Of a stretch of 37,527 nt of DNA, positions 7,482 through 30,751 are shown one piece after another. Both the position numbers and the translations under genes were made by a program. Source of the stretch: Candidatus Kaiserbacteria bacterium GW2011_GWA2_52_12 (GTDB lineage Bacteria > Patescibacteriota > Minisyncoccia > Phycocordibacterales > UBA2100); the NCBI GenBank assembly GCA_001004345.1, contig LCQW01000004.1:1-37527 (forward strand), read 5' to 3'. The notes beneath the pieces were generated by a model. The model had not been told where the DNA came from, searched no databases, and worked only from the letters and a program-made list of their open reading frames with translations. Position 1 is the first letter of the stretch. The number at the start of each line of letters is the position of its first letter.

Positions 7482-7487
7482 TGCGCG

Positions 7488-9179
7488 CTACATTCTCTCC
7501 GGTGCTGAAATGCCGAGAATGTGGAGGCCGTTTTTGAGCGTGCAACACACGGCACTTGTGATGGCTACTTTATGCGCTTGCGTATTCGAGCCGTCGAGAA
7601 TCTGTTCGGTGGCATACCACCGGTTAAAGAGCGAGGAGACCTCAACGAGGTATGTAGTGACGTGGTGCGGCTCCCGCTCCAGAGATGCGCGCAAAACAAC
7701 TTCAGGGAAGCGGTGCAGAAGTCGTGCAAGATCAGAGATTTCCGCGCGTTCATCGAATCGGGGGGCGATGTTTTGTTCAGCCGCTTTTTCAACGACCGCG
7801 CGCGTTCGCGCATGTGCATACTGCAAATACGGGCCCGAATCACCTTCGACGGAGAGCGCTCGTTCACGGTCGAAAATAATATCTTTGCTCGTGCCACCTT
7901 TCAGTATTTGGAATTTAATCGCCCCGACGGCAATATCCTGCGCAAGTTTCTCGTGATCTGCGGCACGACTTTCCTTGGCGCGCCCCCGCGCTACATCCGT
8001 AAGATCACCAATGAGGGATTCCCCGGTCACCACGTTGCCGGTGCGTGACGACATCTTTCCTTCTGCGAATCTCATCATCCCGTGCGTAACGTGCCGGATC
8101 TTCCTCGCGATATCGGGCATTACTTCGTTCATCGCCGCAAGTACAACCTGAAAGTAATCAGCCTGCTCGTGTGCCGTGACTGTAATCGACTCATCAAAAC
8201 TCCAAGTCTTCGCCTTCAACTCAGCTAACCCGAGCTCTTTGGTCTCGTATGTCGGCAAGCCCTTTGATGTAATGAAGACACGCGTATGGAGCCCAACTTT
8301 CTCGCCTTTGTAGACGACAGCCCCGTCGCTCGATTCAAACACTTCCGGATGCGCCTTCACGATGGCCATTCCCTTCCTGGCAGTCTCACTCTCAAAGAAG
8401 TAGTGGTCGAATTTGGTGCCGAGAATTTCGTAGATTTTTTCGAAATGCTTTAGAGATGCCTCACGGCCCTCATCATAAATTGCGTTCACAGCACTATCGG
8501 CCCGCGAATAGACCAGCGCATTTATCTCGTCTATTTCCTTTTTTGCCATCTCATCGGTTTCATAGGCCTTGTTTCCAACAATATATGCATCGCCCCAACT
8601 GCCTCCGGGAACTTTGCTATTTTTTACAGCCCATATCGTTTTTGCCACATGCGGACCTACATCACCCTGATAATTGGCGCGCTTCACTTCGGCACCGGAG
8701 AATTGCAACAGTCGCGATATGGATTCACCGATCGCATTACTCATCAAGTGGCCAATATGGAATTCCTTGAACGGGTTCGGGTCGGTGTATTCGACCATTA
8801 TTTTTTTGCCATCAAGAGATTTGTTGGAACCCCACTTCTCATCTTCTGTGGCTGCGTTGATCGAACTCGTAAGTGCATTTGATGCGAGATAAAAATTGAT
8901 GAATCCGGGCCCCGCGATCTCGATCTTTGAGATGCCGTCGACCGCGCCAAGCGTCTCACCCGTAGGGCTACGACCGAGGGCAGCGACAACCTCTTCCGCC
9001 AGCGCGCGTGACGATCTTCCCGCCTGTTTTGCATATGCAAGCGCGACGCCCGTCGCATAATCGCCGTTCTTCAGATCATTCGTGTGTTCGATGATTATTT
9101 GTTCCCCCGCGACAGAAATGCCCGCCTTTTGAAGGGCTCCTGCTAGGGCCTTTTTCAATTGCTCCCGCATGAAAGCCAT
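7488..9179 (-). CDS. argS: Arginyl-tRNA synthetase
   Basis: A class I synthetase of 563 residues that charges tRNA-Arg. It shows the N-terminal additional domain (NGDYATGVALAYAKQAGRSS, then AGPGFINFYL), a HIGH-type motif in VEYTDPNPFKEFHIGHLMSN, the QGDVGPHVAK segment, and a C-terminal helical anticodon-binding domain (ADHEKLAQDIAVGAIKFQIL, YAHARTRAV). The KMSKS loop is replaced by GKMSSRTGN, as is common in ArgRS. The ATG at 9179 is preceded by a weak GGGA; an in-frame ATG three codons later is possible. A divergent gene remnant (9239-9289) starts about 60 nt upstream on the other strand. Confidence 0.97.
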   Translation of the reverse strand: MAFMREQLKKALAGALQKAGISVAGEQIIIEHTNDLKNGDYATGVALAYAKQAGRSSRALAEEVVAALGRSPTGETLGAVDGISKIEIAGPGFINFYLASNALTSSINAATEDEKWGSNKSLDGKKIMVEYTDPNPFKEFHIGHLMSNAIGESISRLLQFSGAEVKRANYQGDVGPHVAKTIWAVKNSKVPGGSWGDAYIVGNKAYETDEMAKKEIDEINALVYSRADSAVNAIYDEGREASLKHFEKIYEILGTKFDHYFFESETARKGMAIVKAHPEVFESSDGAVVYKGEKVGLHTRVFITSKGLPTYETKELGLAELKAKTWSFDESITVTAHEQADYFQVVLAAMNEVMPDIARKIRHVTHGMMRFAEGKMSSRTGNVVTGESLIGDLTDVARGRAKESRAADHEKLAQDIAVGAIKFQILKGGTSKDIIFDRERALSVEGDSGPYLQYAHARTRAVVEKAAEQNIAPRFDERAEISDLARLLHRFPEVVLRASLEREPHHVTTYLVEVSSLFNRWYATEQILDGSNTQAHKVAITSAVCCTLKNGLHILGISAPERM

Positions 9180-9881: not shown

Positions 9882-10304
9882 TTACAAATCGCTATCAATC
9901 CCCATGGACCGAGCGGTACCAGCAATGATTTTCTTTGCGTGCTCGAGGTCGTTGGCGTTGAGGTCTTCCATTTTTTCCGTCGCAATTTCCTCGAGCTGCT
10001 TCCCGGTGAGCTTACCCACCTTGTCTTGCGCCTTATGCGAACCCTTCTCCATGTTCATGGATTTCAAGATGAGGCGCGAGGCAGGTGGCTTCTTCACGAT
10101 GAAAGTAAACGAGCGGTCTTTGTAGACCGTCATGAGCACGGGGACGATCGAGCCCATCATCGAGCGGGTCTGCGTATTGAATTGATTGACAAATTCGCCA
10201 ATATTGACGCCCGCAGGGCCGAGCGCGGTACCCACCGGCGGCGCCGGTGTAGCCTTCCCGGCCTCAATCTGCAATTTGATTATTTTTGTGACTTCTTTAG
10301 CCAT
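9882..10304 (-). CDS. rplK: 50S ribosomal protein L11
   Basis: L11 forms part of the GTPase-associated centre with 23S rRNA. All 140 residues match the family: the N-terminal [20 protein letters not shown], the proline-rich [20 protein letters not shown], and the C-terminal RNA-binding domain ending [12 protein letters not shown]. In most bacteria rplK directly follows nusG and precedes rplA. Here a DGR separates it from nusG, and no rplA follows: the next gene is relB. A -10 box lies 8 nt before the ATG with no ribosome binding site, so the mRNA may be leaderless and independent of the secE-nusG promoter. Confidence 0.97.
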
Positions 10305-10312: not shown

Positions 10313-10341
10313 ACTATATACTTATTTATTCTTTTGTTCAA
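10313..10341 (-). promoter_or_regulatory. Promoter for rplK inside the end of the RT gene
   Basis: Minus-strand TTGAAC (10341-10336) and TATAGT (10318-10313) are spaced by 17 nt. The -35 and most of the spacer lie in the last codons of the reverse transcriptase gene, and the -10 ends 8 nt before the rplK ATG. This would give rplK its own, nearly leaderless transcript downstream of the DGR. Confidence 0.55.
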
Positions 10342-11452
10342 GCTCGCCGATTTTCTTTTGAAGCGGGCCAGCGAGTCTTCGTGTATTGCCGTGGCCCAGT
10401 AAGCCAAGATACGATTCAAGTGATGCTAGCGAATCGTTACCTTCCGTCTTCGCCAACATCCTCCGTTTAGTATTCGTCCGTAACACTCGATGATCAGAAA
10501 AGTGGATCCAGCCAAGGAAATCAATGCCGGATGCATATGTCTTAATGGACACTTTGTCGGGGTGCAGTTCGAGATGCAGCCGTTCCCACAAGAATAGGGC
10601 GATATATCGCCCTACTTGCCGTAGCAACTGTTTGTCGTGTGAAAGAATCACAAAATCATCGGCATAGCGGATATAGTATTTTGCTTTCAGCGTATGCTTC
10701 ACGAATGTATCGAACTCGTTCATGTAGATATTTACAAGAAGCTGCGATGTGAGATTGCCCAGTGGAAGCCCTTTTGAAGCGTACTTATAATAACCGACCG
10801 GATAAGATAGGTACGGTGCATGGAAGCTGCCGACGACTTCGGCAATGAGAGCAGCGACGCGCTTGTCGAGAATGTGTCGCGCGATGATATAAAGTAAAAT
10901 TTTCTGATCAATTGATGCGAAGAATTTTCTGATATCGCACTTCAAGACCCAGACGGTGCGGGTGTGATTGCGAGAAACTTTGTATGCAAAGCTACGGAAT
11001 CGGTTCATCGCGCGGTGCGTTCCCTTCCGCCGCCGACATGAGTATGAGTCCGCGATGAATGTGTGGTCGAAGAATGGGTACAACTTCCGATACAGCGCGT
11101 GGTGGAGCAGGCGATCGCGCACAGTCGCCTTGTGGATGTCGCGAGGTTTGGGATCGCTGATTTTGAAGTGATCATAGCCGCTGTGTTTGTATGTGCCCGC
11201 CGTAAGATCACGGTGGAGCGTGAGTATGTTGTCCATCAATTTATACTGGAACTCCTGCACATCTTTCTTCTTCCATTTACCTCTCACGAATTCTTTCCAC
11301 GCCGCAAGCAGATTTTCTACCGAAATGATATCCTCGTAGGTATGAGCGAACTGAATCCTCTTGGAAGAACCCCCCCCCCAACGAAATTTGTTGCCAGTTA
11401 TTGAACATGCAAAGAAAGTGTACACCGATTGGATACCAATACGCCGAAACAT
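10322..11452 (-). CDS. DGR reverse transcriptase (cassette 1)
   Basis: Reverse transcriptase of a diversity-generating retroelement. It copies the template-repeat RNA with errors at adenines, and the cDNA replaces the variable repeat of a target gene. Evidence: KATVRDRLLHHALYRKLYP (finger), VLKCDIRKFFASIDQ (catalytic Asp), KGLPLGNLTSQLLVNIYMNE, where SQ replaces the SP of group II intron RTs and is diagnostic of DGR RTs, YIRYADDFVIL (YADD, 10655-10666) and GIDFLGWIHF. No maturase or endonuclease domain follows. The start is uncertain. In the given frame the nearest ATG is 11452, deep inside the antisense avd gene. If the 10-C tract at 11370 had nine bases, an ATG at 11408 would read in frame (MFNNWQQIS). 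Frame and function are secure; the N-terminus is not. Confidence 0.93.
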   Translation of the reverse strand: MFRRIGIQSVYTFFACSITGNKFRWGGGSSKRIQFAHTYEDIISVENLLAAWKEFVRGKWKKKDVQEFQYKLMDNILTLHRDLTAGTYKHSGYDHFKISDPKPRDIHKATVRDRLLHHALYRKLYPFFDHTFIADSYSCRRRKGTHRAMNRFRSFAYKVSRNHTRTVWVLKCDIRKFFASIDQKILLYIIARHILDKRVAALIAEVVGSFHAPYLSYPVGYYKYASKGLPLGNLTSQLLVNIYMNEFDTFVKHTLKAKYYIRYADDFVILSHDKQLLRQVGRYIALFLWERLHLELHPDKVSIKTYASGIDFLGWIHFSDHRVLRTNTKRRMLAKTEGNDSLASLESYLGLLGHGNTRRLAGPLQKKIGELEQKNK

Positions 11453-11747
11453 TGCCCGTACCGAGCGGTTTGGGATAGGCAACCGAATCGATACGCTGCT
11501 TCTTGAACTTCTCGACTTGTTGCGCAAAGCTGCATTTGTTTCTGGTCCCACAAAAATTCTTCTGTTAGAAAAAGCTTTGCAAACAATAGATTCTCTGCGT
11601 TTCTTCCTCCAGATTGCGTGGGAGTCATCGGTGATAAAGCAGAATCAGTATCTCCAACTCGCACCAGGTGTCGAAGAAATAGGAAAAATGGTAGGTGGCT
11701 GGCGCAAGGGTTTGCTTGCAAAAAACCCGCCCAACAGAGAAAGTTGA
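11361..11747 (+). CDS. avd: DGR accessory variability determinant (Avd-like), antisense to the RT leader
   Basis: A ~120-residue all-helical protein of the bAvd/four-helix-bundle family (23S rRNA-intervening-sequence-like fold), which forms a positively charged pentamer that binds the RT and template RNA. Matching features are FGIGNRIDTLLLELLDLLRK, a middle LLEKALQTIDSLRFFLQIA, and the C-terminal EEIGKMVGGWRKG, all aligning with the second Avd at 26150. It is on the opposite strand from its RT, head to head with overlapping 5' ends, and ends 17 nt before TR1. In the given sequence only a TTG (11361) is available as start; the ATG at 11342 is one base out of frame because of the 10-C tract and would be in frame with nine Cs. 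Confidence 0.8.
   Translation: MEEPPPQRNLLPVIEHAKKVYTDWIPIRRNIARTERFGIGNRIDTLLLELLDLLRKAAFVSGPTKILLLEKALQTIDSLRFFLQIAWESSVIKQNQYLQLAPGVEEIGKMVGGWRKGLLAKNPPNRES
11370..11379. repeat. 10-C homopolymer shared by the avd and RT 5' ends
   Basis: A run of ten C lies where the 5' parts of avd (plus strand) and RT (minus strand) overlap. Removing one base would put a plus-strand ATG (11342) in frame with avd and, on the other strand, an ATG (11408) in frame with RT. It may be a phase-variable tract or a homopolymer length error. Confidence 0.7.
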
Positions 11748-11764
11748 GCGGGGAAGAAGAGAGT

Positions 11765-11870
11765 AGCGGGAAACGAACTCGTTGCCGGCATTCCAGCTGT
11801 TCGGATTGCTAATCGAGTTGGCCTCGACATCCCAGCCGTCACCGTTCCAGTTCGCGTTCACAGCCCAGAG
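11765..11870 (-). repeat. DGR template repeat TR1
   Basis: This 106-nt segment aligns without gaps to the 3' end of the target gene at 12195-12300. Of 17 differences, 16 are at template adenines (T on the plus strand): 16 of 23 adenines are changed against 1 of 83 other bases. It is read on the minus strand, like the RT. The frame matching the VR contains several AAC codons (N-rich, NANWNGDGWDVEANSISNPN), typical of DGR templates. It sits between the end of avd and a terminator. Confidence 0.93.
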
Positions 11871-12101
11871 CCATTTGTACGCTGCGTCATCCGCTCCACT
11901 GCCCTTTGAATACTCTCCGGGCTGTATCTCATGTGGGACCTTAAAGTCCGCCAGCGTAGCGCACCGATTCTTTTCTTTTTTAAACATTCGCATGCACACT
12001 CAAGCAATTCGCAAACGGCTCGATTCTGGCAAGGCCAATGTTTGAGGTGCTGCATGCAATCCGCAGACGACACGCCCAGAGCGTTCCTCACTGGTGATTA
12101 T

Positions 12102-12143
12102 ACAAAAGAAAAGACCCTCTGAATTTTTTAGGTTCAAAGGGTC
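12102..12143 (-). terminator. Intrinsic terminator after the variable target gene
   Basis: An 11-bp stem (12113-12123 with 12133-12143, one G-U pair on the minus strand) is followed on the minus strand by TTTTCTTTTG. It lies about 50-90 nt past the target gene's stop and before TR1, so target mRNA and TR-RT transcription could be uncoupled here. The rest of 11871-12192 holds no gene I can support; an open frame through TR1 and its upstream flank has no independent evidence of expression. Confidence 0.65.
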
Positions 12144-12192
12144 AAAGTTTCTAAGACACAAAGCAAAAGCAAAGTATCTTAGTGTAAAAGAA

Positions 12193-12810
12193 TCAGCGGG
12201 AAACGAACTCGCGGCCGGCACGCCAGCCGAACGGAAGCCTAAGCGAGTAGGCCTCGACACCCCAGCCGCCACCGTACCAGTGCGCGCTCACAGCCCAGAG
12301 CACATTGTTGTCGTCACGTACGTAACCGATCAGCCATGTGAAGTCTTGAGTCGCCTGCTTATGCGCGAGCGTCTCGAAGAACTCGTAGAGGCTGGTTTCC
12401 GCCTTTTCGAGACCGCCGAGACCCGCGATGGTGCCGGGCTCTTCCGCATTCTTGGGCAGGTCGATAGACGACCTGCGAAGCGTTTGGAGTTTCAGATCGC
12501 TCGCAGCGATGTTGTGCTCGATCTTGGGCAGCAAGTACGTCTTGAAATTACCACCAAGCCACGAGATGCGTACACGCGCCCTCTCGGAGGTGTCGATGAC
12601 ATAGTTCTTCGCTGCGACGAACTCCTCCGTACCAACGGTCTTGAACGATCCCGCAAAGGTGAAGAGGCTGTCGACGACTGCTTTCCCCTTTTTCGACGCA
12701 GGGTTGACGAGGACCAACTTGCCGGCGAGAAGAAGATCTACGCCGCCTTCTCCTCCAAGCTTATTGATGAGGGCCTCGAGACGACCCAACATGTTTGGGT
12801 ATTTCGACAT
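12193..12810 (-). CDS. DGR variable target protein (cassette 1)
   Basis: A 205-residue protein whose last ~35 residues are the variable repeat. The C-terminus (LWAVSAHWYGGGWGVEAYSL, ending GREFVSR) has the W-rich, G-rich pattern of C-type-lectin-fold DGR targets, in which variable residues sit on the ligand-binding face and the fixed VSR end corresponds to the priming site. The N-terminal ~150 residues have no motif I recognise, no signal peptide and no membrane segment, so the protein is probably cytoplasmic. The ATG at 12810 has AGGA about 9 nt upstream and a small hairpin (12825-12839) just before it. The gene lies between nusG and TR1 on the same strand as the secE-nusG operon. Its ligand is unknown. 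Confidence 0.88.
   Translation of the reverse strand: MSKYPNMLGRLEALINKLGGEGGVDLLLAGKLVLVNPASKKGKAVVDSLFTFAGSFKTVGTEEFVAAKNYVIDTSERARVRISWLGGNFKTYLLPKIEHNIAASDLKLQTLRRSSIDLPKNAEEPGTIAGLGGLEKAETSLYEFFETLAHKQATQDFTWLIGYVRDDNNVLWAVSAHWYGGGWGVEAYSLRLPFGWRAGREFVSR
12195..12300 (-). repeat. Variable repeat of target 1 (VR)
   Basis: The variable copy of TR1, forming the last ~35 codons of the target gene and ending in its stop codon. The last 17 template-matched bases (GAGTTCGTTTCCCGCT region) are identical between TR and VR, as expected for the initiation-of-mutagenic-homology end. Differences to TR1 are at 16 template adenines plus one C-to-G. Confidence 0.93.
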
Positions 12811-19617: not shown

Positions 19618-20079
19618 TTACGATGGGGGGTTAGCCGTACCCCAGCTCCACAACACAGTGAAGTTTTTGAGATATTTTTCTCCTGTAGCCGATGATGAAA
19701 CGACATTGATCGTACCATCTTGCTCAACCTCCAAAGAGATAAAATAGGGCTGTCCATTGATTGTTTTTACAAAAAGAAAGTCTCCGCGCTTACTTTCCAT
19801 ATCTTTACGTACCTCATCAGGAAACCTGATGATTTTTGTCAGCGAACTCATGATAGTAAGGAAATCCGCCGGGCTTTGCTTGTCGAAAATGTGCCTGTCG
19901 TAGATGTGTTTTAAAGATTTTGTACTTAGAAAAACCTCCCTTTCATTACAAATACGGTGTACGGACAGTACGTTTCGAATACTTGGCTTAATCTTGCACA
20001 GCACATCACGAGCCAACATGATCGTTTGTTTCTGTGCCGTGCCTTTTATATGTGAGTTGTAGTATAGAAATTGAAGCAT
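19618..20079 (-). CDS. BECR/PBECR-like nuclease-domain protein (tentative)
   Basis: A 153-residue soluble protein. The C-terminal ~100 residues (STKSLKHIYDRHIFDKQSPA, then GDFLFVKTINGQPYFISLEV and WSWGTANPP) resemble small Barnase/EndoU/ColicinE5/RelE-type (PBECR-like) nuclease domains carried by phage and mobile elements: a helix with a conserved H near its end followed by paired beta strands. This is recognition by pattern only and could be wrong. The gene lies about 60 nt from the 3' end of tRNA-His, and the first ~20 codons look weaker, so the start may be further inside (ATG of MLARDV). No partner antitoxin or immunity gene is seen next to it. Confidence 0.4.
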   Translation of the reverse strand: MLQFLYYNSHIKGTAQKQTIMLARDVLCKIKPSIRNVLSVHRICNEREVFLSTKSLKHIYDRHIFDKQSPADFLTIMSSLTKIIRFPDEVRKDMESKRGDFLFVKTINGQPYFISLEVEQDGTINVVSSSATGEKYLKNFTVLWSWGTANPPS

Positions 20080-21372: not shown

Positions 21373-21935
21373 ACAATATCGCGGTAAAGTGGCGACGCTT
21401 CAACAATGCCTGCTCGGTGATTGACGAGGCGTGTCAGGGCATAAAAAAATGACGACAGCCGATTGGCATAGGCCCGCGATGATTCACTCATAACGCGTTC
21501 TTCCGATTCGTGCAACACCACCAGTCGCCGCTCGGCCCTGCGGCTTATAGCCCGGGCGATATCGAGCCGCGCGGAGAATTCAGTGCCGCCCGGCACAAGG
21601 AATGTTGTAACGGGGGGCAGCGACTTTTCGATCGACGTGATGAGTGCCGATAATGCCTCGACGCTCGCCTGCGGGACAGATTTTTTCGCCCCCGCAGCTT
21701 CGGCCTGAATGGTAAAAAGAAAATCCTGCACTTCGTGCAGTAATGCTTCAACTAGTCGATCATCGACCAAAAAATCTTTCGGCGCAGCGACCTTACACCA
21801 CCCCACGACCGTATTCAGCTCATCGAGCTGTCCCAAACATTCGAAAATGGGCGACGATTTCGTAACCCGCTGCCCCGAAGGGGTGTCAAACAATTTTGTT
21901 GTCCCGCCATCTCCTTTGCCGGTAAAGAACGACAT
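21369..21935 (-). CDS. PduO-type cob(I)alamin adenosyltransferase
   Basis: A 188-residue enzyme that transfers adenosyl from ATP to cob(I)alamin. The ATP-binding N-terminus FFTGKGDGGTTKLFDTPSGQ, the RAISRRAERRLVVLHESE helix and the YANRLSSFFYALTRLVNHRA C-terminus match the PduO family. The start at 21935 gives the canonical MSFFTGKGD; further upstream codons are not needed. It could belong to adenosylcobalamin salvage, but no cobalamin-dependent enzyme is in the window. A degenerate copy of its 5' third lies at 22900-23088. Confidence 0.9.
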   Translation of the reverse strand: MSFFTGKGDGGTTKLFDTPSGQRVTKSSPIFECLGQLDELNTVVGWCKVAAPKDFLVDDRLVEALLHEVQDFLFTIQAEAAGAKKSVPQASVEALSALITSIEKSLPPVTTFLVPGGTEFSARLDIARAISRRAERRLVVLHESEERVMSESSRAYANRLSSFFYALTRLVNHRAGIVEASPLYRDIV

Positions 21936-21986
21936 CACCCAATGATAGCAGAGGATGAACGTCAACGGTCAGTGGTGTCCGATGTA

Positions 21987-22598
21987 CTAAGCAAATACTT
22001 CTGTAATTTTCATTTTAAAGAGCGGTTTCATATCGTCCTTTGAAATCGATTCCCCTATCCAATCAATGGGCTCGTTTTCAAGGTCGTCGGTAAAAAGAAG
22101 CTGCTCACAAAAAAGACGATCATTGAAAGCGTCGCCGTATTTTTTTTGAGCGTCAGCAATAATGGATGAAAGTGAGATGATGTCGCGCACGAGGATCGCA
22201 TGGAGATCAACATAATCTTTGAGTGACTGACGCCTCCCGAGCGTATACGCTTTCATGGAAGCAATATCCGCAACCGATGCAAGTGGAACAGTCGGCGTTT
22301 TTACTTTCTCATACAAGAGCACGAATGGATAGTGAAGGGCCGTAAGCTTGACGTCATCGACCATGACGGTGAGTTCGTCTCCACTCTGGACAATAGGAAT
22401 GACAGATGCAAATCGTTTCTCTATTTCTGAGCGGAGAGATTTTTTGATCGGCATCGTGGAGAAAAAGTCGAGATCAACCGAGCGACGGTGGCCTATTTGC
22501 AATGCAAGCGAGGTGCCGCCCGCAAGATACATGTTTCCGAGGAAACCGCATTTTTCCCATACGGCCTTCGTTATTGTACTCAAGGCTTCGTCATGCAT
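21987..22598 (-). CDS. AbiEii/AbiGii-family nucleotidyltransferase toxin
   Basis: A 203-residue protein of the AbiEii-like nucleotidyltransferase family, toxins of type IV-like toxin-antitoxin or abortive-infection systems. The signatures are LAGGTSLALQIGHRRSVDLD, with GG-x-S and the D-x-D metal site in SVDLDFF, followed by the family's DDVKLTALHYPFVLLY and the K-D-x2-D segment (RRQSLKDYVDLHAIL). The ATG at 22598 overlaps the partner gene by 8 nt. The module is bracketed by direct repeats of the adenosyltransferase gene start. Confidence 0.82.
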   Translation of the reverse strand: MHDEALSTITKAVWEKCGFLGNMYLAGGTSLALQIGHRRSVDLDFFSTMPIKKSLRSEIEKRFASVIPIVQSGDELTVMVDDVKLTALHYPFVLLYEKVKTPTVPLASVADIASMKAYTLGRRQSLKDYVDLHAILVRDIISLSSIIADAQKKYGDAFNDRLFCEQLLFTDDLENEPIDWIGESISKDDMKPLFKMKITEVFA

Positions 22599-22851
22599 AA
22601 TTCCAATCCGAAAATAGAAACACCGCCTCGACAAGCGGGCGCAATTTTGAGCGAAATGTGGACGCCGGCACCGAAGAAAGTACGTTCCGTATTTCATCAT
22701 CACCGTAAAATGCGCGTATCCACTTCCAGTGAGTAAAGGACCCGTAGAGAAGTGCTTGTGTAATAATTGTCTTTTTCATGCGTGTAGGATCGCACGCGTC
22801 AAGGGAATATGACCATAAAACGGATTTAAAGTATGGGGGGACCTTCCTCAT
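22591..22851 (-). CDS. Small partner of the AbiEii-like toxin (DUF6922-like)
   Basis: An 86-residue protein with the pattern PPYFKSVLWSYSLDACDP, TIITQALLYGSFTHWKWI and VPASTFRSKLRPLVE, resembling the small proteins (DUF6922-like) usually encoded directly upstream of AbiEii-type nucleotidyltransferases; an antitoxin role is inferred from that pairing. Its 3' end overlaps the toxin start by 8 nt. The in-frame ATG two codons upstream (22857) is an alternative start. Confidence 0.6.
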   Translation of the reverse strand: MRKVPPYFKSVLWSYSLDACDPTRMKKTIITQALLYGSFTHWKWIRAFYGDDEIRNVLSSVPASTFRSKLRPLVEAVFLFSDWNYA

Positions 22852-22899: not shown

Positions 22900-23088
22900 T
22901 TCTACCAACCGATTACCAGCCAAAAAATCCTTTGGCGCAGCGCCCTTACACCACCCCACGACCGTATTCAGCTCATCGAGCTGTCCCATGCACTAAAAAA
23001 TGGGTGATGACTTCGTCACCCGCTGACCCGAGGGAGTATCGAACAATTTGATTGTCCAACCATCTCCTTTGCCGGTAAAAAAAGTCAT
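22900..23088 (-). pseudogene. Decayed 5' fragment of a second PduO-type adenosyltransferase
   Basis: The minus strand from an ATG at 23088 reads MTFFTGKGDGWTIKLFD, continues through QRVTKSSPIF to a TAG stop (22993-22995), and then resumes MGQLDELNTVVGWCKGAAPK. It is a close copy of the first ~65 codons of the gene at 21369-21935, with a stop codon and no C-terminal two thirds. It is not functional. Confidence 0.85.
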
Positions 23089-23105
23089 CATATACTCTTT
23101 TTTTC

Positions 23106-23165
23106 GAGCTCCTCAACTCGGAAATCCGAAAGCAGGCTTTCGTATTTCACTCGCCCTACGTCGCC
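23106..23165 (+). repeat. Hairpin element, copy A
   Basis: Flanks ACTCGG and CACTCGCCCTACG surround an imperfect 13-bp inverted repeat (23121-23133 with 23136-23148, one mismatch, 2-nt loop). It shares its flanks with copy B at 26521-26575 but has a partly different stem. It interrupts a duplicated start region of the adenosyltransferase gene. Confidence 0.65.
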
Positions 23166-23166
23166 C

Positions 23167-23195
23167 GTAAAGAACGACATCACCCAATGATAGCA
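23167..23195. repeat. 29-bp exact direct repeat of the adenosyltransferase start region
   Basis: Identical to 21922-21950, which spans the start codon and upstream region of the intact adenosyltransferase gene. The two copies lie about 1.2 kb apart and bracket the AbiEii-like toxin pair. Confidence 0.85.
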
Positions 23196-23217: not shown

Positions 23218-25200
23218 TTAGAGATCTTTCAGATGCTCTTTAAGCAGATTTCCAAGCGTCGTACCCAGCTGTCCAGCTTTCTCACATACACGCCCATCAG
23301 GTGCGTAAGTTGTGGTAATGGCCGCGCCTGATTTTGTGATTCCGACGCCCACGACGATGACTCCTCTGTCACGTAGTTCCTTGGCGGCTTTTTGAGCAGC
23401 AGTCTGGTCGGAGCTGTTTCCATCGGAGAGAACGATAATAATCTTTCGCAGCTTTTTATCGGCTATTCGTTGCCAATCCTCCTCAGGAATTGAGTCTTTG
23501 ATGCGCTCGAGTGCTTTAAAATCTTTAGTCTCATCTCCATGGGTATCGCCAAGCGTTTTATATACCGCCACGCGCTCTTTTTCAGTGAGCGTCTCGGACA
23601 GAGGTTTTAAAATGCCGATTTCTTTGTCGCCTCCAAAAGCCCAGCTTTCCGTCCGAACATGCAAGTCGTAAAGTAGATCGCGATGCACATCATCAAGCTC
23701 ACGAGAAAATTCAGTTAGCGCCTCAAGGGTGAGTGCGATAGCTTTTCGTTGCTCGACGTTCTTCACCGCTCCGTCAGAGTCCGACTCTTGCATAGAGCCG
23801 GAACGGTCGCCGACGAGGGTGACGTCAAAATTTCCGAAACGCTCAAGAAGTTTCTCATGCACCTCGACAGTTTCCCAAACTGCGGGCTCCTGTATTCCGG
23901 CTTTGATGGCCGCCACAGCGTCTGCTGGTCGCGCAAGAATCTCTCCTTCGGTTGTGGGCAATTTCGGTCTGAGCCGTGGAGCCATGCGTTCCGCGATAAT
24001 TTTACGAAATATCGCTCGCAATTCTTCAAGAACACGTTCGTTCGTCTCCGGATTTTGAATATTCTCAACTTCTGACCAGAAATTCTGGTAGGTCCGTAAA
24101 TCTTCAACGGACACGCCCGCCTCACGTGCGTACGCTTCTTGCAACATTTCTTCCTCGGTTTTCTCAGTTCCTGTCTTCTGTTTTGCCTCAATGTATTTCT
24201 TCACCGCCTTGTCTATGTCCTCGGCGGGAAGCGCTTTATCCGGATTCTTTTCGTTATATTCTGCGTATTCGTTCTTGAATTGATCCTCAGAATTCTTGCC
24301 CTTGCCTTTCTGGCCTTTTTCCGGCTTCTGGCCTGCCCCGTTGGCAGCTTGCTGTTTTTTGGGGTCTTTTCCGCTTTTCGGATCGTCCTCGCCAGTCCCC
24401 TCTCCCTGACCTTGATCGCCCTGTTGCTGTTGGTCTTTTTTCTTCTGCTCGACATCCTCGTCAAAAAAACGCTTCGACACCGGATCGAGGTATTTATCCT
24501 GCAAAGCGATACGGACCGACGGCGGAATATCAGGACGGCTCGCATACTCCAACAGCGGAACTCCGCTCTTGCTTTTGATGCCGCGTAGCCGGTCAATCTC
24601 GGCACGCACATCGGGCGCAACTGTACACGCCTCGTTCGGAACCATGCGTTCGCGGAGTAGGGTGTAAGCGAACTGCAAATGCTTGGGCAGTTTCGTAAAA
24701 TCCGTTTCGGGGAAGAGGTCCTCCTTGTATAGAGCTTCTTTGGCGTCCTTAAGAGCTGGCGCGCGCGAATCAACACCTCGATTCATCCGCACATCATCCC
24801 ACGTGTTGTCGAGAATGCTATATCGTTTACTTACTTGTACTTTGTCGCGGTGTTTTCGCCAAACCTTGTCTCCGCTCTTTTCGGCGAGCAAATCGCGCAA
24901 CTCCCTGAAATGCTCGAATTCGTGGAATAACACGTACGGCTTCTTTGAATGCTTCATCTGCATGAAAAAATCCGGATTGACATACATCTTTCCTTTCTCC
25001 AGATCAATTCCCAATGTCTTCACGCTAGAACCAGGAGGTGCCGGTTCAATTCCGATCGAGTCGTCTCCTATGTAGGCGCGTAAAAAGTCTCGATCCTCTT
25101 CAAAAAATGCTCGCATCTCTTCTTCGCTAGTTGGTGTAGTGTCGGGATTAGCGTCTCTGGGGCCTTTATTCTTCTCTACCATCTTCCATATTTCGATCAT
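23218..25200 (-). CDS. vWA (MIDAS) protein with N-terminal zincin motif, linked to the DGR
   Basis: A 660-residue protein. Residues 60-150 contain KPYVLFHEFEHFRELRD, where H93-E94-x-x-H97 is a zincin-type metalloprotease motif, followed by WDDVRMNR, similar in layout to the putative metallopeptidase domains fused to vWA domains. Residues ~250-315 are a Q/G/K-rich linker. Residues ~455-655 are a von Willebrand A domain with an intact MIDAS start (DRSGSM, 465-470) and a later IIIVLSDGNSSDQ. Proteins of this kind typically work with MoxR-type AAA+ ATPases as metal-dependent adaptors. The AAA+ protein at 28048-30693 is the obvious partner. The start overlaps the RT 3' end by 35 nt; an in-frame ATG at 25182 is the alternative. 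Proteolytic activity is inferred from the motif only. Confidence 0.82.
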   Translation of the reverse strand: MIEIWKMVEKNKGPRDANPDTTPTSEEEMRAFFEEDRDFLRAYIGDDSIGIEPAPPGSSVKTLGIDLEKGKMYVNPDFFMQMKHSKKPYVLFHEFEHFRELRDLLAEKSGDKVWRKHRDKVQVSKRYSILDNTWDDVRMNRGVDSRAPALKDAKEALYKEDLFPETDFTKLPKHLQFAYTLLRERMVPNEACTVAPDVRAEIDRLRGIKSKSGVPLLEYASRPDIPPSVRIALQDKYLDPVSKRFFDEDVEQKKKDQQQQGDQGQGEGTGEDDPKSGKDPKKQQAANGAGQKPEKGQKGKGKNSEDQFKNEYAEYNEKNPDKALPAEDIDKAVKKYIEAKQKTGTEKTEEEMLQEAYAREAGVSVEDLRTYQNFWSEVENIQNPETNERVLEELRAIFRKIIAERMAPRLRPKLPTTEGEILARPADAVAAIKAGIQEPAVWETVEVHEKLLERFGNFDVTLVGDRSGSMQESDSDGAVKNVEQRKAIALTLEALTEFSRELDDVHRDLLYDLHVRTESWAFGGDKEIGILKPLSETLTEKERVAVYKTLGDTHGDETKDFKALERIKDSIPEEDWQRIADKKLRKIIIVLSDGNSSDQTAAQKAAKELRDRGVIVVGVGITKSGAAITTTYAPDGRVCEKAGQLGTTLGNLLKEHLKDL

Positions 25201-26188
25201 ATTTTTTCTGTAGGAGTAATTTCTTGAGTCCGTACGAGCGTGTATGACTGATTAGTCCGAGATAGGAAGAGAGGTTTTTATCTCCCACCCGGGCGAGCAT
25301 GCGGCGTTTCGTTTTTGTACGCAAAACTGCCGTGTAGGGGAAGCAGACAAAGCCCAGAAAATCGACGCCATTGCTCAACCTGCTCAATGTGATTTTAGCA
25401 GGGTGCAGTTGTAGTCGCAATTGACTTTCGAGGAACAGTCGTATCTGTGGCACGAGAGCCTTGAGAACATCCGGATCGCGGCTAAGTATGACGAAATCAT
25501 CGCAGTAGCGGAGATAATGGGGCACGCGCAAACGGTGCTTCACATATTGATCGAGTTCGTTGAGATATACGTTGGCGAAAAGTTGTGAGGTGAGATTGCC
25601 GAGCGGGAGCCCTTTGTCGAAACTGCCAAGCACGTTCGCGATAAGCGGGCGTGTATCTTTGCAACTTACCGTGCGTTCAATAATGGCAAGAAGAACGCCT
25701 TGATCAACCGAAGCGAAGAATTTTGCAATATCCATCTTGAGAACCCAAACAGGAACCGTATTGTTTCGCGACAAAGACCACGCAATGCGCCCGAATCGCT
25801 CAATGGCGGCGTGAGTGCCTTTGCGCTTCCGGCAAGACCACGAATCGAAAATAAACTTACGTTCAAACATTCGCTCGATCATGCGAACGATGGCGTGATG
25901 CACGAGCCGGTCTCCTACTGACGCCTTGTGAATATGCCGATGCTTGGGATCCTGTACGAAAAACGAGTCGTATCCGCCGTGCTGGTACGTTTTGTTGCGG
26001 AGACTATAATGCAAACCTAATATGTTATCCCCGAGCTGTCGTTCGTATCGAAGCACGTCCGCTCTTGATTGCTTGCCGCATCGGAATTTCCGCCACGCCC
26101 CCATCAGATTCCGGCAGCTGATTATCCGTTCGTATAGCGTGGGAGCCCTATGAGGCCGAGCGATGGGTTTGACCTTCCCATTTTCCAT
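25166..26188 (-). CDS. DGR reverse transcriptase (cassette 2)
   Basis: A ~340-residue DGR reverse transcriptase, related to the one at 10322. Visible motifs are IHKASVGDRLVHHAIVRMIE, VLKMDIAKFFASVDQ, KGLPLGNLTSQLFANVYLNE (the DGR SQ signature), YLRYCDDFVILSRD (YCDD, 25496-25507) and GVDFLGFVCF. I start it at the ATG at 26188 (MENGKVKPIA), preceded by TAGG; the ATG at 26218 is possible. The longer open frame to 26473 is antisense to avd and not protein-like. The 5' end overlaps avd head to head by 39 nt, and the 3' end overlaps the vWA gene, so RT and vWA share a transcript. Confidence 0.94.
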   Translation of the reverse strand: MENGKVKPIARPHRAPTLYERIISCRNLMGAWRKFRCGKQSRADVLRYERQLGDNILGLHYSLRNKTYQHGGYDSFFVQDPKHRHIHKASVGDRLVHHAIVRMIERMFERKFIFDSWSCRKRKGTHAAIERFGRIAWSLSRNNTVPVWVLKMDIAKFFASVDQGVLLAIIERTVSCKDTRPLIANVLGSFDKGLPLGNLTSQLFANVYLNELDQYVKHRLRVPHYLRYCDDFVILSRDPDVLKALVPQIRLFLESQLRLQLHPAKITLSRLSNGVDFLGFVCFPYTAVLRTKTKRRMLARVGDKNLSSYLGLISHTRSYGLKKLLLQKKYDRNMEDGREE

Positions 26189-26500
26189 AGCGCCTACCAG
26201 TTGCTTCTTTCTGTTCATGCGCGAACCGGTAAATTTCCTAAACAGGACAGATATACGATTGGCGAGCGTCTTCAAGTACTCGCAATGGACTTTCTGGGAT
26301 TCATTATTCGGGCTAACGCTGTAAGAGGCGACGGGCGGAGAGAGTTGCTTTCCGAGGCGAGCGTTACCCTGGATCTCTTCAAGGTTATGCTTCGTCTTGC
26401 TAACGACACGAAAGCTCTGCCAGAAAAAGGGTACCTCGACCTTGCGAATCAATCGCGTGAGATCGGAAGGCAACTTGGCGGCTGGATCAAGTCCACGTAA
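26150..26500 (+). CDS. avd: Avd-like DGR accessory protein (cassette 2), antisense
   Basis: A 116-residue four-helix protein of the bAvd family: FPKQDRYTIGERLQVLAMDF, ELLSEASVTLDLFKVMLRLA and the terminal EIGRQLGGWIKST are diagnostic. The family's role is binding RT and TR RNA to allow mutagenic cDNA synthesis. A GGGAG ribosome binding site lies 4 nt before the ATG. It is on the opposite strand to RT, TR and both targets, between RT and TR2, and overlaps the RT start by 39 nt. A perfect 7-bp repeat (AAACCGG/CCGGTTT) spans its stop codon. Confidence 0.9.
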   Translation: MRPSDGFDLPIFHSAYQLLLSVHARTGKFPKQDRYTIGERLQVLAMDFLGFIIRANAVRGDGRRELLSEASVTLDLFKVMLRLANDTKALPEKGYLDLANQSREIGRQLGGWIKST

Positions 26501-26520
26501 ACCGGCTCCGGTTTCTGGCT

Positions 26521-26575
26521 CCTCGGCTCGGAGATGCGAAAGCGTAGCTTTCGCATCTCGCTCGCCCTACGTCGC
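26521..26575 (+). repeat. Hairpin element, copy B, between avd and TR2
   Basis: Flanks GCTCGG and CGCTCGCCCTACGTCGCC surround a perfect 13-bp inverted repeat (26531-26543 with 26547-26559, 3-nt loop). It sits in the TR-RT spacer, so it would be part of the TR-containing RNA. Confidence 0.7.
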
Positions 26576-26638
26576 CAGTAAGAATCCGATGTTCCCGACG
26601 CACGTTTGAGGTGCGTCGGGAATCGGACGGGAGACGGA

Positions 26639-26742
26639 CAGGGGGCGAAAACCGCTGTTGTCGTTCCGGTTGTCAGGCGTATCCCAATAGACGTGCGAAA
26701 GACCGCCGTTGTCGGAGTTGCCGCCAGCCAAACGCCTGGAGC
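26639..26742 (-). repeat. DGR template repeat TR2
   Basis: Aligns without gaps over 102 nt to two variable repeats, 27130-27231 and 28074-28175. Against the first, all 10 differences fall on template adenines; against the second, 11 of 13 do (19 adenines available). Read on the minus strand in the target frame it encodes an AAC-rich segment (GGNSDNGG, PDNRNDNSGFRPL). It lies between avd and the second target, upstream of RT2 on the same strand. Confidence 0.95.
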
Positions 26743-27109
26743 TTTCGCATGCACGCGACCATCTAAGGCAGAAGCGGTTCAGGCAGATACTTCTCGCTTG
26801 CGCGTAAAGCTCTACGTAGTCCCGCTCGTATAAGTACGTTGCGTCTCCGTTCTTTCAATGTTCTACGCATTAGTCGCGCACACATCGTTTCCCTTTATCT
26901 GGGCGAACCAACCATTTCCGTCGCCAAAGGCGGCAGGGATGTGGCTTCATGAGCCCAACCAACCATAGCGTGGTTAATATGAAAACTGAAGTTTTGCTGC
27001 CTACGACGCTCGGAAATGAAAGTGCTCTCACTTTCATTTCTCTCGCTATCCTCGGCAGATAAAAAATGCAACGAACCCAAAGCCCCAAAAGAAAAAGGCC
27101 AAGGAACCC
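26743..27109. other. Gene-free stretch between TR2 and target 2a, with hairpin element copy C
   Basis: No convincing gene. Its main feature is a perfect 12-bp inverted repeat at 27013-27024/27029-27040 inside flanks GCTCGG and CTCTCGC, the same flank pattern as copies A and B but with a wholly different stem (GAAATGAAAGTG). The first bases (26740-26750, AGCTTTCGCAT) repeat the right arm of hairpin copy B. A short open frame at 26870-27088 has no protein-like features. Confidence 0.6.
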
Positions 27110-27985
27110 TTAAGAAGGGATAACGATCAGGGGGCGAAAACCGCCGTTGCCGTTCCGGTAGTCAGGCGAAGCCCAACAGACGTGCGAAAGACCGCCGAGG
27201 GCGGAGTAGCCGCCAGCCAAACGCCTGGAGCCCTGGTAGGAATCTTCAAACCATTCCCACGTATTTGTGTCCCCCCATTTTTGATAGTGCGCGTTGCCCA
27301 TAAAGTTCCATTCGATAGCTCGGGGTAGTCGCAGATTATCCGGCGCAACTCCCAATATTTCGGCCAGCTTGCGCTTCACTTCCGGCTTATGCAATTCATC
27401 CCACGAAATCTCGAAGCGGGACCCCGCTTTGGTGCCCCCTATGACTTTTTGTTTTCGCAATTCCTCGATGGCATCTTTAAACGGATCATTCGCGTACATC
27501 TGATTTCCATTCTGGTACTGCGGCTTTTCCCGCGTGTCCACTACCACCCATGCACCGGGAAGTTTGAGCGTGTCTGCGGCAAGTTTACTATTTTTATCCT
27601 TGACCGCGTTGAACAGGTTTATATTCGAGGTCGGCTTCTTTTTCCAGCCGGGATAGTTTTTATTTTCACTCATTTCCATATCCGGCATATAGTGCAGTTC
27701 CAGTCCCATTTCTTTCCACTGCTCGTATTGTTCCATGGTGACACTGCCGGGCACGGATGGGACATCGACGTCTGAACCGAAGAATGCGCGAAGAGACTCT
27801 CGTTCGCGCTCCTCTACCTCGTCGAACCCTCTTTGTTCCATACCTTCCACCGAGACACCGCCTTGCGCGATTTTCTTCTCTTCTTCGACAGTGAGAGCAC
27901 GGAGCCCCGCAGCCTTGAAACTCTCCACCACGAATGGACCTTCTGTCGGGAGTCTGCGGCGGCTGGCTGTTTCTAGTGCTGTCAT
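27110..27985 (-). CDS. DGR variable target protein 2a (FGE/CLec-like domain)
   Basis: A 291-residue protein made almost entirely of the domain found at the C-terminus of the neighbouring AAA+ protein: WKEMGLELHYMPDMEMSEN, LPGAWVVVDTREKPQYQNGN, ISWDELHKPEVKRKLAEILG, LPRAIEWNFMGNAHYQKWGD and the terminal GGFRPL. The ending resembles the formylglycine-generating-enzyme/sulfatase-modifying (C-type-lectin-like) fold used by many DGR targets; catalytic cysteines of true FGE are not evident, so it is probably a binding domain. Residues ~252-285 are the variable repeat. No signal peptide or membrane helix is seen. It lies 62 nt after the AAA+ gene, on the same strand. Confidence 0.88.
   Translation of the reverse strand: MTALETASRRRLPTEGPFVVESFKAAGLRALTVEEEKKIAQGGVSVEGMEQRGFDEVEERERESLRAFFGSDVDVPSVPGSVTMEQYEQWKEMGLELHYMPDMEMSENKNYPGWKKKPTSNINLFNAVKDKNSKLAADTLKLPGAWVVVDTREKPQYQNGNQMYANDPFKDAIEELRKQKVIGGTKAGSRFEISWDELHKPEVKRKLAEILGVAPDNLRLPRAIEWNFMGNAHYQKWGDTNTWEWFEDSYQGSRRLAGGYSALGGLSHVCWASPDYRNGNGGFRPLIVIPS
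27130..27231 (-). repeat. Variable repeat in target 2a
   Basis: Variable copy of TR2. All ten differences to the template lie at template adenines; no other base differs over 102 nt. It encodes about residues 252-285, changing surface positions such as N-to-Y, D-to-A and N-to-L. Confidence 0.95.
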
Positions 27986-28047
27986 GGTGTTTTACATTTT
28001 TGCGGCGAAATCCAAAGTTTCAAAGAATAAAGACCTAAGAACCCAAC

Positions 28048-30693
28048 TTAACCAGATTGAGGGAAAGCGATCAGGGGGCGAAAACCGCAGTAGCCGTGCC
28101 GGTAGGCAGGCGTAACCGAAGAGACGTGCGAAAGACCGCCGTAGTCGGAGTGGCCGCCAGCCAGACGCCCGGAGCCTTGTTGGTAGGAATCCTCAAACCG
28201 CTCCCACGTATTGGTATCTCCCCATTTTGGATAATGGGCGTTGCCGAGAAAATTCCACTCCGCTGCGCGGGGCAGACGTACCTGCTCCAGATCAACACCG
28301 AGTACCTCTGCCAATTTCGCCCTCACTTCGGGCTTGTGCAATTCGTCCCAAGAAATATTAAATCTCGAATCCGAGTGTTTGAAGTTCTGAATGACGCCTC
28401 TGTCGCGGAGTTCCTTGATCGCCGCGCCAAGCTCGGCGTCATCCGGATACTTTTGATTACCGCCTTGGTACACGGGTTTCTCTCGGGTATCGACGAGAAT
28501 CCATTTACCAGGCAATTTAAGATTGTCGGGCGAGAGCCCATTCTTGGATGCGGCCGTCTCGTCGAGAAATTCGATGCCCCATTCTTTGTTCGGACTGTAT
28601 TTCTTGCCAGGCTTTTTCTTCCATCCGGGATATTTTTTATTGTCGCTCATCTCTTCTGGAGGCAGATAGTGCAATTCGAATTTCATCTCCTTCCATCTTT
28701 CATACTGCTCGGCCGTAATGGAATCTGGCAGCGCGGGCACGTCAATATCTTTGCCGAAGAATTCGCGCAGCGAGGATCGCTCGCGTTCGATAATAGCCTC
28801 GAATACCTCGTTCTTTTCAGGCGACCCACCCAGCTTTCTTTCATACGGCATCAAGCCTGGTTTGCCTTCTTTGTTCAAGCCGACATACCGGAACACGTTG
28901 CCACCCTCGTCGATAAGCAAGGCGCCGGGTTTGTATTCTTTTCTCCCCTCCTTGTACGGAACGCGCTCATATTCCTCGTCCAGAAATTCCTTCCCGATCC
29001 GGGCGAGTTCGGCTGCACGTTTATCGAATGGGTCGAGCAACGCGACTTCGGATGGCCGTAGTGGATTCACGTCTGTCTCTGCCGCCCTCTTTTTGTCCTT
29101 TAATCCATACGTGCGTAACTTCTCGGCAGTAAGATTTGTCTGGAATTCTTTTGGACTGCGTCCTGCGAAAAAACCTTTCGCCAAAAATACTTTCAGGAGT
29201 AGCGCCCGGTCTTTCTCGGGAAAATCTTCTTTATTGATGAAATCTCGTAGCTGGTCGTTGAGATATTCGTAGAAAGACCCCCCTCGTGCTTCGGCCGCTT
29301 GCCAGCCGCCGAGCATGGAAAGTACTTTGCCTGGATCGAGAACCGCCTTTTCCAAGACCCATTTCTTCTTTGTTCCGCCGCTGCCTTCTTCGTAGAAACT
29401 GCCGACCCCGAGAAACGCCTGTTGGACCTGTTCGGTCGCCTCGGCTAAATGCTTGATTGTCTCGGTGGCATCGGCACGAGATGCGTGGACGCGACCCTTG
29501 GCATCCATCAGAGTTGCGACGCATAGATCATACAGCTCGTCTTTCGGTAGGTAATCGATTCGACGCATTTCGAAAACGCGAGATTCGGCGGGATCGAGTT
29601 CAAAGCGCTCTTTGTATTTCTCGCTTTTGAGATTGGCCGTTGCAGCGAATGCGAATTTATTTCCTATTCGGTGAGGATGTCCGCTGTCCTCCTGAATTAC
29701 GACGCTGTCGCCCGCTTTGCGGTTGTAGAGTTCCTTGAATTGAAACCGCGCTTTGGTGTCCAGCATATTGAACTCGTCCGCGATAAATGGCACATCCCTG
29801 TCGACTGCGAACGTATAACGTCCCGGCTGGAAATAAGTTTCTGTCCCGCCTTCTGGCGTCGCACGCAGAAGCGGTTTCCCGAATATCTCGGAGGGCCCTG
29901 TTCGTTCCGTACTGCGAAGCACCTCAGGATTTTCTCCGTAGAGACGCTTGCTCAGATGAATAAGCATTTCTGTTTTCCCTGTACCGGTCGGTCCCGTCGT
30001 CATGACGCTTTTGCCCTCTTCCCATAGTCGCTGGATGTCGTCTTCGTAGGCGCGGCGTGATGGGGTCACGGCGTACCGCTCCTTTCCAAGTTCTTCCCGA
30101 TACGACCGAAGTTCGAACGCGCGCGCGGGAGCAAACGTTTCAGGATCCGTTCGAAGACGCGCTTCCCGCAAGGCAACCGCATCGCGTACCCCCTGATACT
30201 GTTTGATGAGATCAAGATCGGCCGCGCTGAGTTTACTTCTGCGTTCTCGAAGTAATGCAAACTCCTTGCGATCCATCTCGTCGTGAACAACTCGAAGGCG
30301 ACTGAGTTCTGCCGATACGTTCTCATATCGTCGCTCGAAGTCACGGTCTCGCGCCTCTGTACGATGGTCGGGACGCGCGACGTCCTCAAGCGTTCCCCGG
30401 TGTTCAGGTTTAAAATCTGCGGCCTCTTTGTCGAGATCGCGGAGTGTATGGGTCAGGTGCGAGACCCTTTCAGTTCTAGCATCTCCGGTTTCCCCCAGCG
30501 CAGGGATTGTCTCGCCACGCTCGATTGCTTCGCGCATTGAAGTCAAGCTAACGACTTCCGGAGATTCGGCCTGATCTGATTTGCTCTCCCTCCAGGATTT
30601 GCCTACTGCCTCCTTAAATTCGTTCCGTAACTCCCGACGCTTTTTGAAGACCTCGTGAAGATGCTCTCCCGTTTGATTCTTTGGGCCTTCCAT
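28048..30693 (-). CDS. MoxR/AAA_5-type AAA+ ATPase with a DGR-variable C-terminal domain
   Basis: An 881-residue fusion. Residues 1-205 are charged and helical, probably coiled coil. Residues ~205-400 are an AAA+ module of the dynein-related/MoxR type: Walker A GPTGTGKT (234-241), Walker B VPFIADE (D306, E307), sensor 1 ATAN (N354) and a likely arginine finger near R372. A helical middle follows. Residues ~640-881 are the same domain as in target 2a (FELHYLPPEEMSDNKKYPGW, ISWDELHKPEVRAKLAEVLG, LPRAAEWNFLGNAHYPKWGD), with the variable repeat at ~840-873. I infer an ATPase motor whose specificity domain is diversified by the DGR and which works with the vWA protein. A -10 box (30702-30707) lies 8 nt before the ATG, suggesting a leaderless mRNA. 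Confidence 0.9.
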   Translation of the reverse strand: MEGPKNQTGEHLHEVFKKRRELRNEFKEAVGKSWRESKSDQAESPEVVSLTSMREAIERGETIPALGETGDARTERVSHLTHTLRDLDKEAADFKPEHRGTLEDVARPDHRTEARDRDFERRYENVSAELSRLRVVHDEMDRKEFALLRERRSKLSAADLDLIKQYQGVRDAVALREARLRTDPETFAPARAFELRSYREELGKERYAVTPSRRAYEDDIQRLWEEGKSVMTTGPTGTGKTEMLIHLSKRLYGENPEVLRSTERTGPSEIFGKPLLRATPEGGTETYFQPGRYTFAVDRDVPFIADEFNMLDTKARFQFKELYNRKAGDSVVIQEDSGHPHRIGNKFAFAATANLKSEKYKERFELDPAESRVFEMRRIDYLPKDELYDLCVATLMDAKGRVHASRADATETIKHLAEATEQVQQAFLGVGSFYEEGSGGTKKKWVLEKAVLDPGKVLSMLGGWQAAEARGGSFYEYLNDQLRDFINKEDFPEKDRALLLKVFLAKGFFAGRSPKEFQTNLTAEKLRTYGLKDKKRAAETDVNPLRPSEVALLDPFDKRAAELARIGKEFLDEEYERVPYKEGRKEYKPGALLIDEGGNVFRYVGLNKEGKPGLMPYERKLGGSPEKNEVFEAIIERERSSLREFFGKDIDVPALPDSITAEQYERWKEMKFELHYLPPEEMSDNKKYPGWKKKPGKKYSPNKEWGIEFLDETAASKNGLSPDNLKLPGKWILVDTREKPVYQGGNQKYPDDAELGAAIKELRDRGVIQNFKHSDSRFNISWDELHKPEVRAKLAEVLGVDLEQVRLPRAAEWNFLGNAHYPKWGDTNTWERFEDSYQQGSGRLAGGHSDYGGLSHVSSVTPAYRHGYCGFRPLIAFPQSG
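28074..28175 (-). repeat. Variable repeat in the AAA+ fusion protein
   Basis: Second variable copy of TR2. Of 13 differences, 11 are at template adenines; the other two are a G-to-C inside and a T-to-C near the upstream end. It ends close to the stop codon and encodes residues ~840-873. Confidence 0.93.
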
Positions 30694-30727: not shown

Positions 30728-30751
30728 AAGCAGCCCGATGAGGGGCTGCTT
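30728..30751 (-). terminator. Intrinsic terminator of the por operon
   Basis: AAGCAGCCC/GGGCTGCTT-type stem of about 9 bp with a short loop, followed on the minus strand by TTTTTC, 11-34 nt past the stop codon of the PorA-PorB fusion. Confidence 0.8.

Follow-up and report, generated by a model that had tools for sequence, protein, structure and literature searches.

Systems that link a MoxR-type ATPase and a von Willebrand factor A (vWA) protein to a diversity-generating retroelement (DGR) have been described mostly from cyanobacteria and gammaproteobacteria, with an FGS/C-type-lectin (CLec) domain fused to the vWA protein (Kaur 2020, PMC7159879; Dore 2024, PMC10907252). The clade 5F DGRs of the candidate phyla radiation (CPR) and DPANN are said to be without conflict domains (PMC10907252), and AAA-CLec is reported there, citing Paul 2017, as the commonest target architecture of CPR DGRs. 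Here we describe a cassette at 23218-30693, on the minus strand, of a 37,527-nucleotide stretch of DNA (the window) from Candidatus Kaiserbacteria bacterium GW2011_GWA2_52_12. It corresponds to contig C4 of the genome, which measures 925 kb, is 91% complete and holds three RVT_1 genes. The cassette is a genuine DGR whose variable regions lie in the gene of an AAA+ ATPase and in a stand-alone gene, and DGRs are linked to the pair formed by this ATPase and a vWA protein far above chance. On balance we favour reading it as a MoxR-vWA sensor-effector machine of Patescibacteria that the DGR diversifies and whose predicted output is a peptidase. In the order of transcription the cassette runs from the AAA+ gene through the variable protein, the template repeat (TR) and the reverse transcriptase (RT) to the vWA gene. 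Each of these elements, and the overlap between the last two genes, was found where an initial annotation of the window had placed it. The features are as follows (VR, variable region; aa, amino acids; nt, nucleotides).

28048-30693, minus strand: MoxR-type AAA+ ATPase, 881 aa, with AAA_5 above the Pfam cut-off and VR2 at the 3' end of its gene
28060-28179, minus strand: VR2, in the AAA+ gene, with 87.5% identity to the TR core of 104 nt
27110-27985, minus strand: stand-alone variable protein, 291 aa, the same domain as the AAA C-terminus
27116-27235, minus strand: VR1, in the stand-alone variable protein, with core mismatches at TR adenines
26627-26746, minus strand: TR, the repeat matching VR1 and VR2
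26150-26500, plus strand: Avd accessory protein, 116 aa, divergent from the RT, Pfam bAvd
25166-26188, minus strand: DGR RT, 340 aa from the ATG at 26188, RVT_1
23218-25200, minus strand: vWA protein, 660 aa, PF00092, with HEFEH and a metal ion-dependent adhesion site (MIDAS)
25166-25200, minus strand: 35-nt overlap of the RT and vWA genes (RT stop 25166, vWA ATG 25200)
30728-30751, minus strand: terminator-like hairpin after the upstream PFOR gene, a 9-pair stem plus T tract, a match near chance frequency in the region

Comparison with described systems

Like the VMAP ternary systems, the cassette combines a MoxR-type ATPase, a vWA protein and a DGR that diversifies a TvpA-type FGS/CLec domain, and peptidase domains are near in both. 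It differs in that its variable domain is on the AAA+ protein or a stand-alone protein and not on the vWA protein, in that the vWA protein has a HExxH domain at its N-terminus, in the lack of a VMAP component, and in its Patescibacteria host. Membership of the VMAP systems was rejected because the scanned window proteins include no VMAP component and the VRs lie in the AAA and stand-alone genes. The AAA ATPase-CLec DGR targets of CPR also have an AAA ATPase with a C-terminal diversified CLec domain (Paul 2017, as reported in PMC10907252); by that report CPR already have AAA+ proteins that carry a DGR variable domain, and the fusion alone is no novelty.

The AAA domain has weak similarity to that of the bpMoxR (PF20030) ternary systems (16.4 bits in the window and 21.2 in the related locus L042, cut-off 27). 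Unlike in those systems, the window vWA protein ends at its vWA domain (approximately residues 455-660), with no C-terminal beta-propeller, and the P-loop reads GPTGTGKT rather than GXXXTAKS. An AAA+ protein with a vWA/MIDAS partner is also found in NorQ-NorD, RavA-ViaA and Rea1/midasin, which function in complex assembly, and the window vWA model is closest to NorD and Rea1. We know of no DGR and no variable recognition domain in these three. No published description was found of an AAA-CLec DGR with a HExxH-vWA protein, in a literature where Paul 2017 is represented by its account in PMC10907252.

Recurrence of the cassette and its linkage to DGRs

The vWA family was sampled in 98 near relatives and in 384 genomes of the class, and 84,980 species genomes were scanned for its motifs. 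The vWA protein had matches in 4 of the 98 near relatives (the window's own genome included) and in 14 of the 384 class genomes. The species-genome scan gave 26 loci, 8 of them duplicates, and a hand tally over the samples came to 31 distinct HExxH-vWA loci. Most relatives with the same genes are Patescibacteria. The AAA+ and vWA genes, whose products the initial annotation had taken for partners, are conserved neighbours: AAA lies beside vWA in 22 of 24 assessable loci, counted after seven loci on truncated contigs were left out. It is missing in L032 and was not found in L044, where the contig ends close by. An RT, in some cases frameshifted, is near the vWA gene in 15 of the 31 loci, and RT remnants are present in two more (L025 and L063). 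Eight loci have no RT near vWA and six were not assessable.

The same gene order, sought in other Patescibacteria, recurs in at least five. AAA-Avd-RT-vWA, with Avd divergent, is common to the window, L027, L028, L043 and L045, and in L042 an additional variable gene separates RT from vWA in the otherwise shared order. Alternative orders are vWA-AAA-Avd-RT (L026, L048) and a divergent DGR with the variable protein (VP) genes arranged as VP-AAA-VP-vWA-VP (L031, L033, L061, and similarly L065). The initial annotation had taken the RT-vWA overlap to mean that diversification and effector form one unit. The junction does recur: the two genes overlap or are at most 12 nt apart in the window, L027, L043, L045 and L051, vWA is overlapped by a remnant of the RT in L063, and another remnant is just before or near vWA in L025. 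Diversification and effector are not one obligatory unit, however, and the order varies. A-biased TR/VR pairs were detected in 13 loci including the window, and in eight loci a VR is inside the AAA gene itself (the window, L012, L026, L027, L042, L043, L045 and L048).

An RT is encoded in 173 of the 384 class genomes. Of the 14 genomes that have the vWA gene, 8 have an RT no more than 10 kb away from it, against an expected 0.5; the P value of about 1e-9 was computed with rounded genome sizes and is somewhat too small, since G239, G308 and G390 share near-identical vWA genes and the eight cases are not fully independent. Twenty further DGR loci of the class, chosen for their high RT scores and not at random, were all without the AAA-vWA pair; L068 has a single weak AAA fragment. 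In those with a recognised VR, a single small protein was usually the target. In the vWA tree all three deep groups contain DGR-linked members, and the linkage to DGRs is thus, on this phylogeny, old or repeatedly regained. Syntrophorhabdus-type members are nested among Patescibacteria, as expected from transfer. Judged from gene content across these loci, the DGR is optional, some relatives having repeat proteins in its place, and separate proteins may carry the variable domain.

The DGR and the variable domain

Within the 104-nt TR core, which has 19 adenines, all 10 mismatches between VR1 and TR fall at TR adenines (hypergeometric P 3.5e-9), as do 11 of the 13 mismatches of VR2 (P 2e-8). 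The cassette is therefore a genuine DGR. Codon positions 1 and 2 hold 21 of 22 TR adenines, and the 16 TR codons that contain A allow approximately 3e12 protein variants. The RT scored 62.9 bits against RVT_1 (Pfam, cut-off 29.6, E 4.5e-17) and is 46.6% identical to the DGR RT of G008, a genome of the same genus; the RT tree was poorly resolved, with three rows cut out of frame, and was not used. The TR, VRs and RT of the initial annotation are real. It had overlooked the Avd gene, located between the TR and the RT, as well as the probable start of the RT at ATG 26188, which the Avd gene overlaps. A start at TTG 26473 is probably spurious because its reading frame would run through the antisense Avd gene. 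Avd matched PF22296 (bAvd) with 55.5 bits (cut-off 40) and NCBIfam NF033474 with 64.6 bits (E 8e-18), under the cut-off of 80 for the latter. Avd is divergent from the RT, and mostly between TR and RT, in every Patescibacteria DGR examined (L068-L087, L040, L041, L013 and the window).

The AAA domain scored 26.8 bits against AAA_5 (Pfam cut-off 22), and its Walker A motif is intact. The variable domain of the AAA+ protein occupies approximately residues 630-881 and is C-type-lectin/FGE-like; the stand-alone variable protein is 60% identical to this C-terminus across 248 aa. A model of the variable protein, built from only five aligned sequences, had a pLDDT of 70. Its fold matches by VIA included PvdO (Z 7.1), CarF (Z 6.9) and TvpA (Z 6.6), with FGE, EgtB-type enzymes, MTD and TaqVP below TvpA. 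Nearly every leading VIA match has the FGE/C-type-lectin fold, although the Z scores are middling, and Foldseek alone gave no significant match with this model. The matches support, at these middling scores, the C-type-lectin/FGE-like binding fold that the initial annotation had given the variable face. By the positions and A-specific changes of VR1 and VR2, the DGR has rewritten the predicted ligand face of this domain both on the AAA+ C-terminus and on the separate protein. Hydropathy revealed no transmembrane segment in the window proteins, and this lack of strong hydrophobic segments suggests a cytosolic location.

The vWA protein

The vWA protein is predicted to consist of an N-terminal domain with HEFEH (residues 93-97) and N132/D136, a charged linker and a C-terminal vWA domain at approximately 455-660. 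The latter matched PF00092 above the Pfam cut-off (31.7 bits). Its MIDAS is intact, with DRSGSM at 465-470 (D465-x-S467-x-S469) plus D593, and these four residues are invariant across 25 homologs. A model of the protein (pLDDT 81) matched the Rea1 MIDAS domain with a Z score of 20.4 (220 residues, root-mean-square deviation (rmsd) 4.7) and the NorD vWA domain with a Z score of 19.5 (202 residues, rmsd 2.6), and the five top Foldseek matches were chains of NorQ-NorD structures. As modelled, the domain resembles the vWA domains that partner MoxR-type ATPases (NorD, Rea1/midasin).

At the N-terminus three short strands, a helix with HEFEH (84-106) and a helix with N132/D136 (125-146) are predicted. 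H93, E94, H97 and D136 align in 25 of 25 homologs, and the HExxH spacing is exact in the inspected homologs outside the Yanofskybacteria group. Of the zincin that had been proposed for this protein, the HEFEH motif is present and conserved, but no Pfam peptidase model matches the HExxH-vWA protein; we therefore infer a zincin from the conserved motif and the predicted secondary structure. The fold search was run with the whole model, and its results were filled with vWA matches. From the conserved motif it is plausible that the domain acts as a protease.

Exchangeable modules and horizontal transfer

The vWA protein next to the AAA-CLec/DGR unit of G008 has a transglutaminase-like domain in place of HExxH (Transglut_core, 1.2e-11). 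The triad Cys418, His461 and Asp478 is intact in G008 and conserved in G446; these two were the only genomes of the sampled class with transglutaminase-type vWA proteins. Because two unrelated peptidase-like folds occupy the same place, a hydrolytic output is suggested to matter. The predicted recognition module around AAA and vWA is exchanged as well in loci without a DGR. In G419 it consists of repeat proteins that have their N-terminus in common, and in G341 of shared-N-terminus proteins with repeat and CLec-like C-termini; neither genome had an RT at E 1e-8. In L035 and L036, whose genomes had no detected RT, AAA and vWA are interleaved with shared-N-terminus proteins that have differing repeat or CLec-like C-termini. 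The long repeats in L030-L036 had raised the possibility of a gene-cassette array, which was rejected: those in L030-L033 are copied stand-alone variable-protein genes, and those in L035-L036 are the proteins with a shared N-terminus. In the deltaproteobacterial locus L055 a repeat protein without a Pfam match lies between AAA and vWA. The Syntrophorhabdus/Deltaproteobacteria relatives are L052 and L054-L057, and both AAA and vWA are present in L055-L057, where the contig allows.

The vWA proteins of L030, L031, L032 and L033 are near-identical, and the genomes that encode them belong to different families. This identity, together with the serine recombinases that adjoin three loci, indicates horizontal transfer, which for the vWA genes of L030-L033 would be recent. 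Horizontal transfer is usual for conflict systems. L031 has a neighbouring terminase, and L030 encodes three variable proteins with no RT nearby. A viral origin of the vWA gene was rejected, as the motif-based scan, which has limited recall, found no vWA relative in IMG/VR.

Surroundings of the cassette

Given the terminator-like hairpin after the PFOR gene, a separate transcription unit probably begins with the AAA gene. On the other side of the cassette the 5' part of a cobalamin adenosyltransferase gene is duplicated (21747-21937 and 22900-23195) and flanks an AbiEii-like toxin gene (21987-22703), and 23136-23170 is similar to the stretch that follows shortly after the TR (26547-26581). The duplication and this likeness are perhaps a rearrangement scar. 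A PBECR-type (phage Barnase/EndoU/ColicinE5/RelE-like) nuclease gene is near the cassette at 19618-20079.

The window holds a second DGR at 10322-12810, with an RT (10322-11551, minus strand), a divergent Avd (11361-11747, plus strand), a repeat pair (11765-11878 and 12195-12308) and a 205-aa target (12193-12810, minus strand). A third DGR of the same genome (locus L013 on contig C30 of G000) has an RT at 5832-7085 (plus strand), Avd at 7427-7795 (minus strand), a TR at 7094-7235 and a VR at 10140-10281. At 4079-4501 of L063 there is an Asn-rich open reading frame resembling an orphan TR for another variable domain.

Possible functions of the cassette

In the sensor-effector machine that we favour, the mutable lectin face would bind a ligand in the cytosol that is not the cell's own, for example a phage protein, and binding would alter the AAA+ ring. 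ATP-driven remodelling by the ring would then act on the vWA protein by way of its MIDAS, and the peptidase-like N-terminal domain of that protein would be unleashed or fed substrate, to the detriment of the invader or of the infected cell. A probable role of the stand-alone variable protein would be to broaden the repertoire or to feed the same AAA+ ring. We infer a defence role, possibly anti-phage, and proteolysis; defence is favoured by analogy to the systems of PMC7159879 and PMC10907252, by the patchy distribution, by the neighbouring serine recombinases and by the terminase of L031. A bolder form, which we put forward tentatively, is an NLR-like immune machine that is anticipatory and diversifies itself. 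Its mutable antigen-binding face would be on the AAA+ motor and would control a vWA-tethered peptidase, and both the recognition module (DGR lectin or repeat proteins) and the effector module (zincin-like or transglutaminase-like) would be exchangeable.

Several points weigh against the favoured machine. None of VMAP, iSTAND and FtsH, the third components of the systems of Kaur, was present among the window proteins scanned against Pfam, and with PADLOC the AAA, vWA and variable proteins had no convincing match. The vWA gene is without an intact or remnant RT in about a third of the assessable loci. The zincin assignment has neither Pfam nor fold-search support of its own, and the Yanofskybacteria group has HELMAH, which with one extra residue departs from the HExxH spacing. 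Other recognition roles than defence, such as host interaction or regulated assembly, would fit the evidence too.

Assembly is the core of one alternative, a DGR-diversified chaperone module in which the AAA+-vWA pair remodels or inserts a surface or metabolic complex and the lectin picks varying clients or host ligands, in the service of episymbiosis and not of defence. The closeness of the vWA fold to the assembly chaperones NorD and Rea1 is in its favour, as is the host-interaction role proposed for clade 5F CPR DGRs (PMC10907252). We nevertheless regard it as unlikely: the observed neighbours of the AAA-vWA pair include no conserved client gene, the distribution in the class and among near relatives is patchy, with transfer between families, the proteins have peptidase-like domains, and those of the window have no transmembrane segment by hydropathy. 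Equally doubtful is a structural or inactive metal site at HExxH, with the vWA protein only an adaptor and the real effector encoded elsewhere. The systems of PMC7159879 commonly include inactive enzyme domains, and both the HELMAH variant and the missing Pfam peptidase match agree with this proposal, whereas the exact spacing in the other inspected homologs, the D136 of all 25 and the substitution of a transglutaminase-like domain with an intact triad in two relatives weigh against it. That a DGR cassette chanced to land beside an AAA-vWA pair is highly improbable and was rejected, for although DGRs are frequent in the class, some vWA loci lack any RT and the order varies, the association far above chance recurs across distant genomes and in all three deep vWA groups, with RT remnants by vWA and with VRs in the AAA gene itself.

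Implications

DGR-diversified MoxR-vWA conflict systems are known from multicellular bacteria, and the loci described here would be a distinct, recurrent version in many lineages of Patescibacteria. What is new relative to the known systems is the lack of VMAP in the scanned proteins, the variable face on the AAA+ or a separate protein, and the HExxH-vWA partner. By one account, the DGRs of clade 5F CPR have no link to conflict domains (PMC10907252). The AAA-CLec DGR targets of CPR gain a partner, the vWA protein, and a candidate output, the peptidase-like domain, and their role thereby becomes testable with purified proteins. The occurrence in Patescibacteria also questions the tie of such systems to multicellularity.
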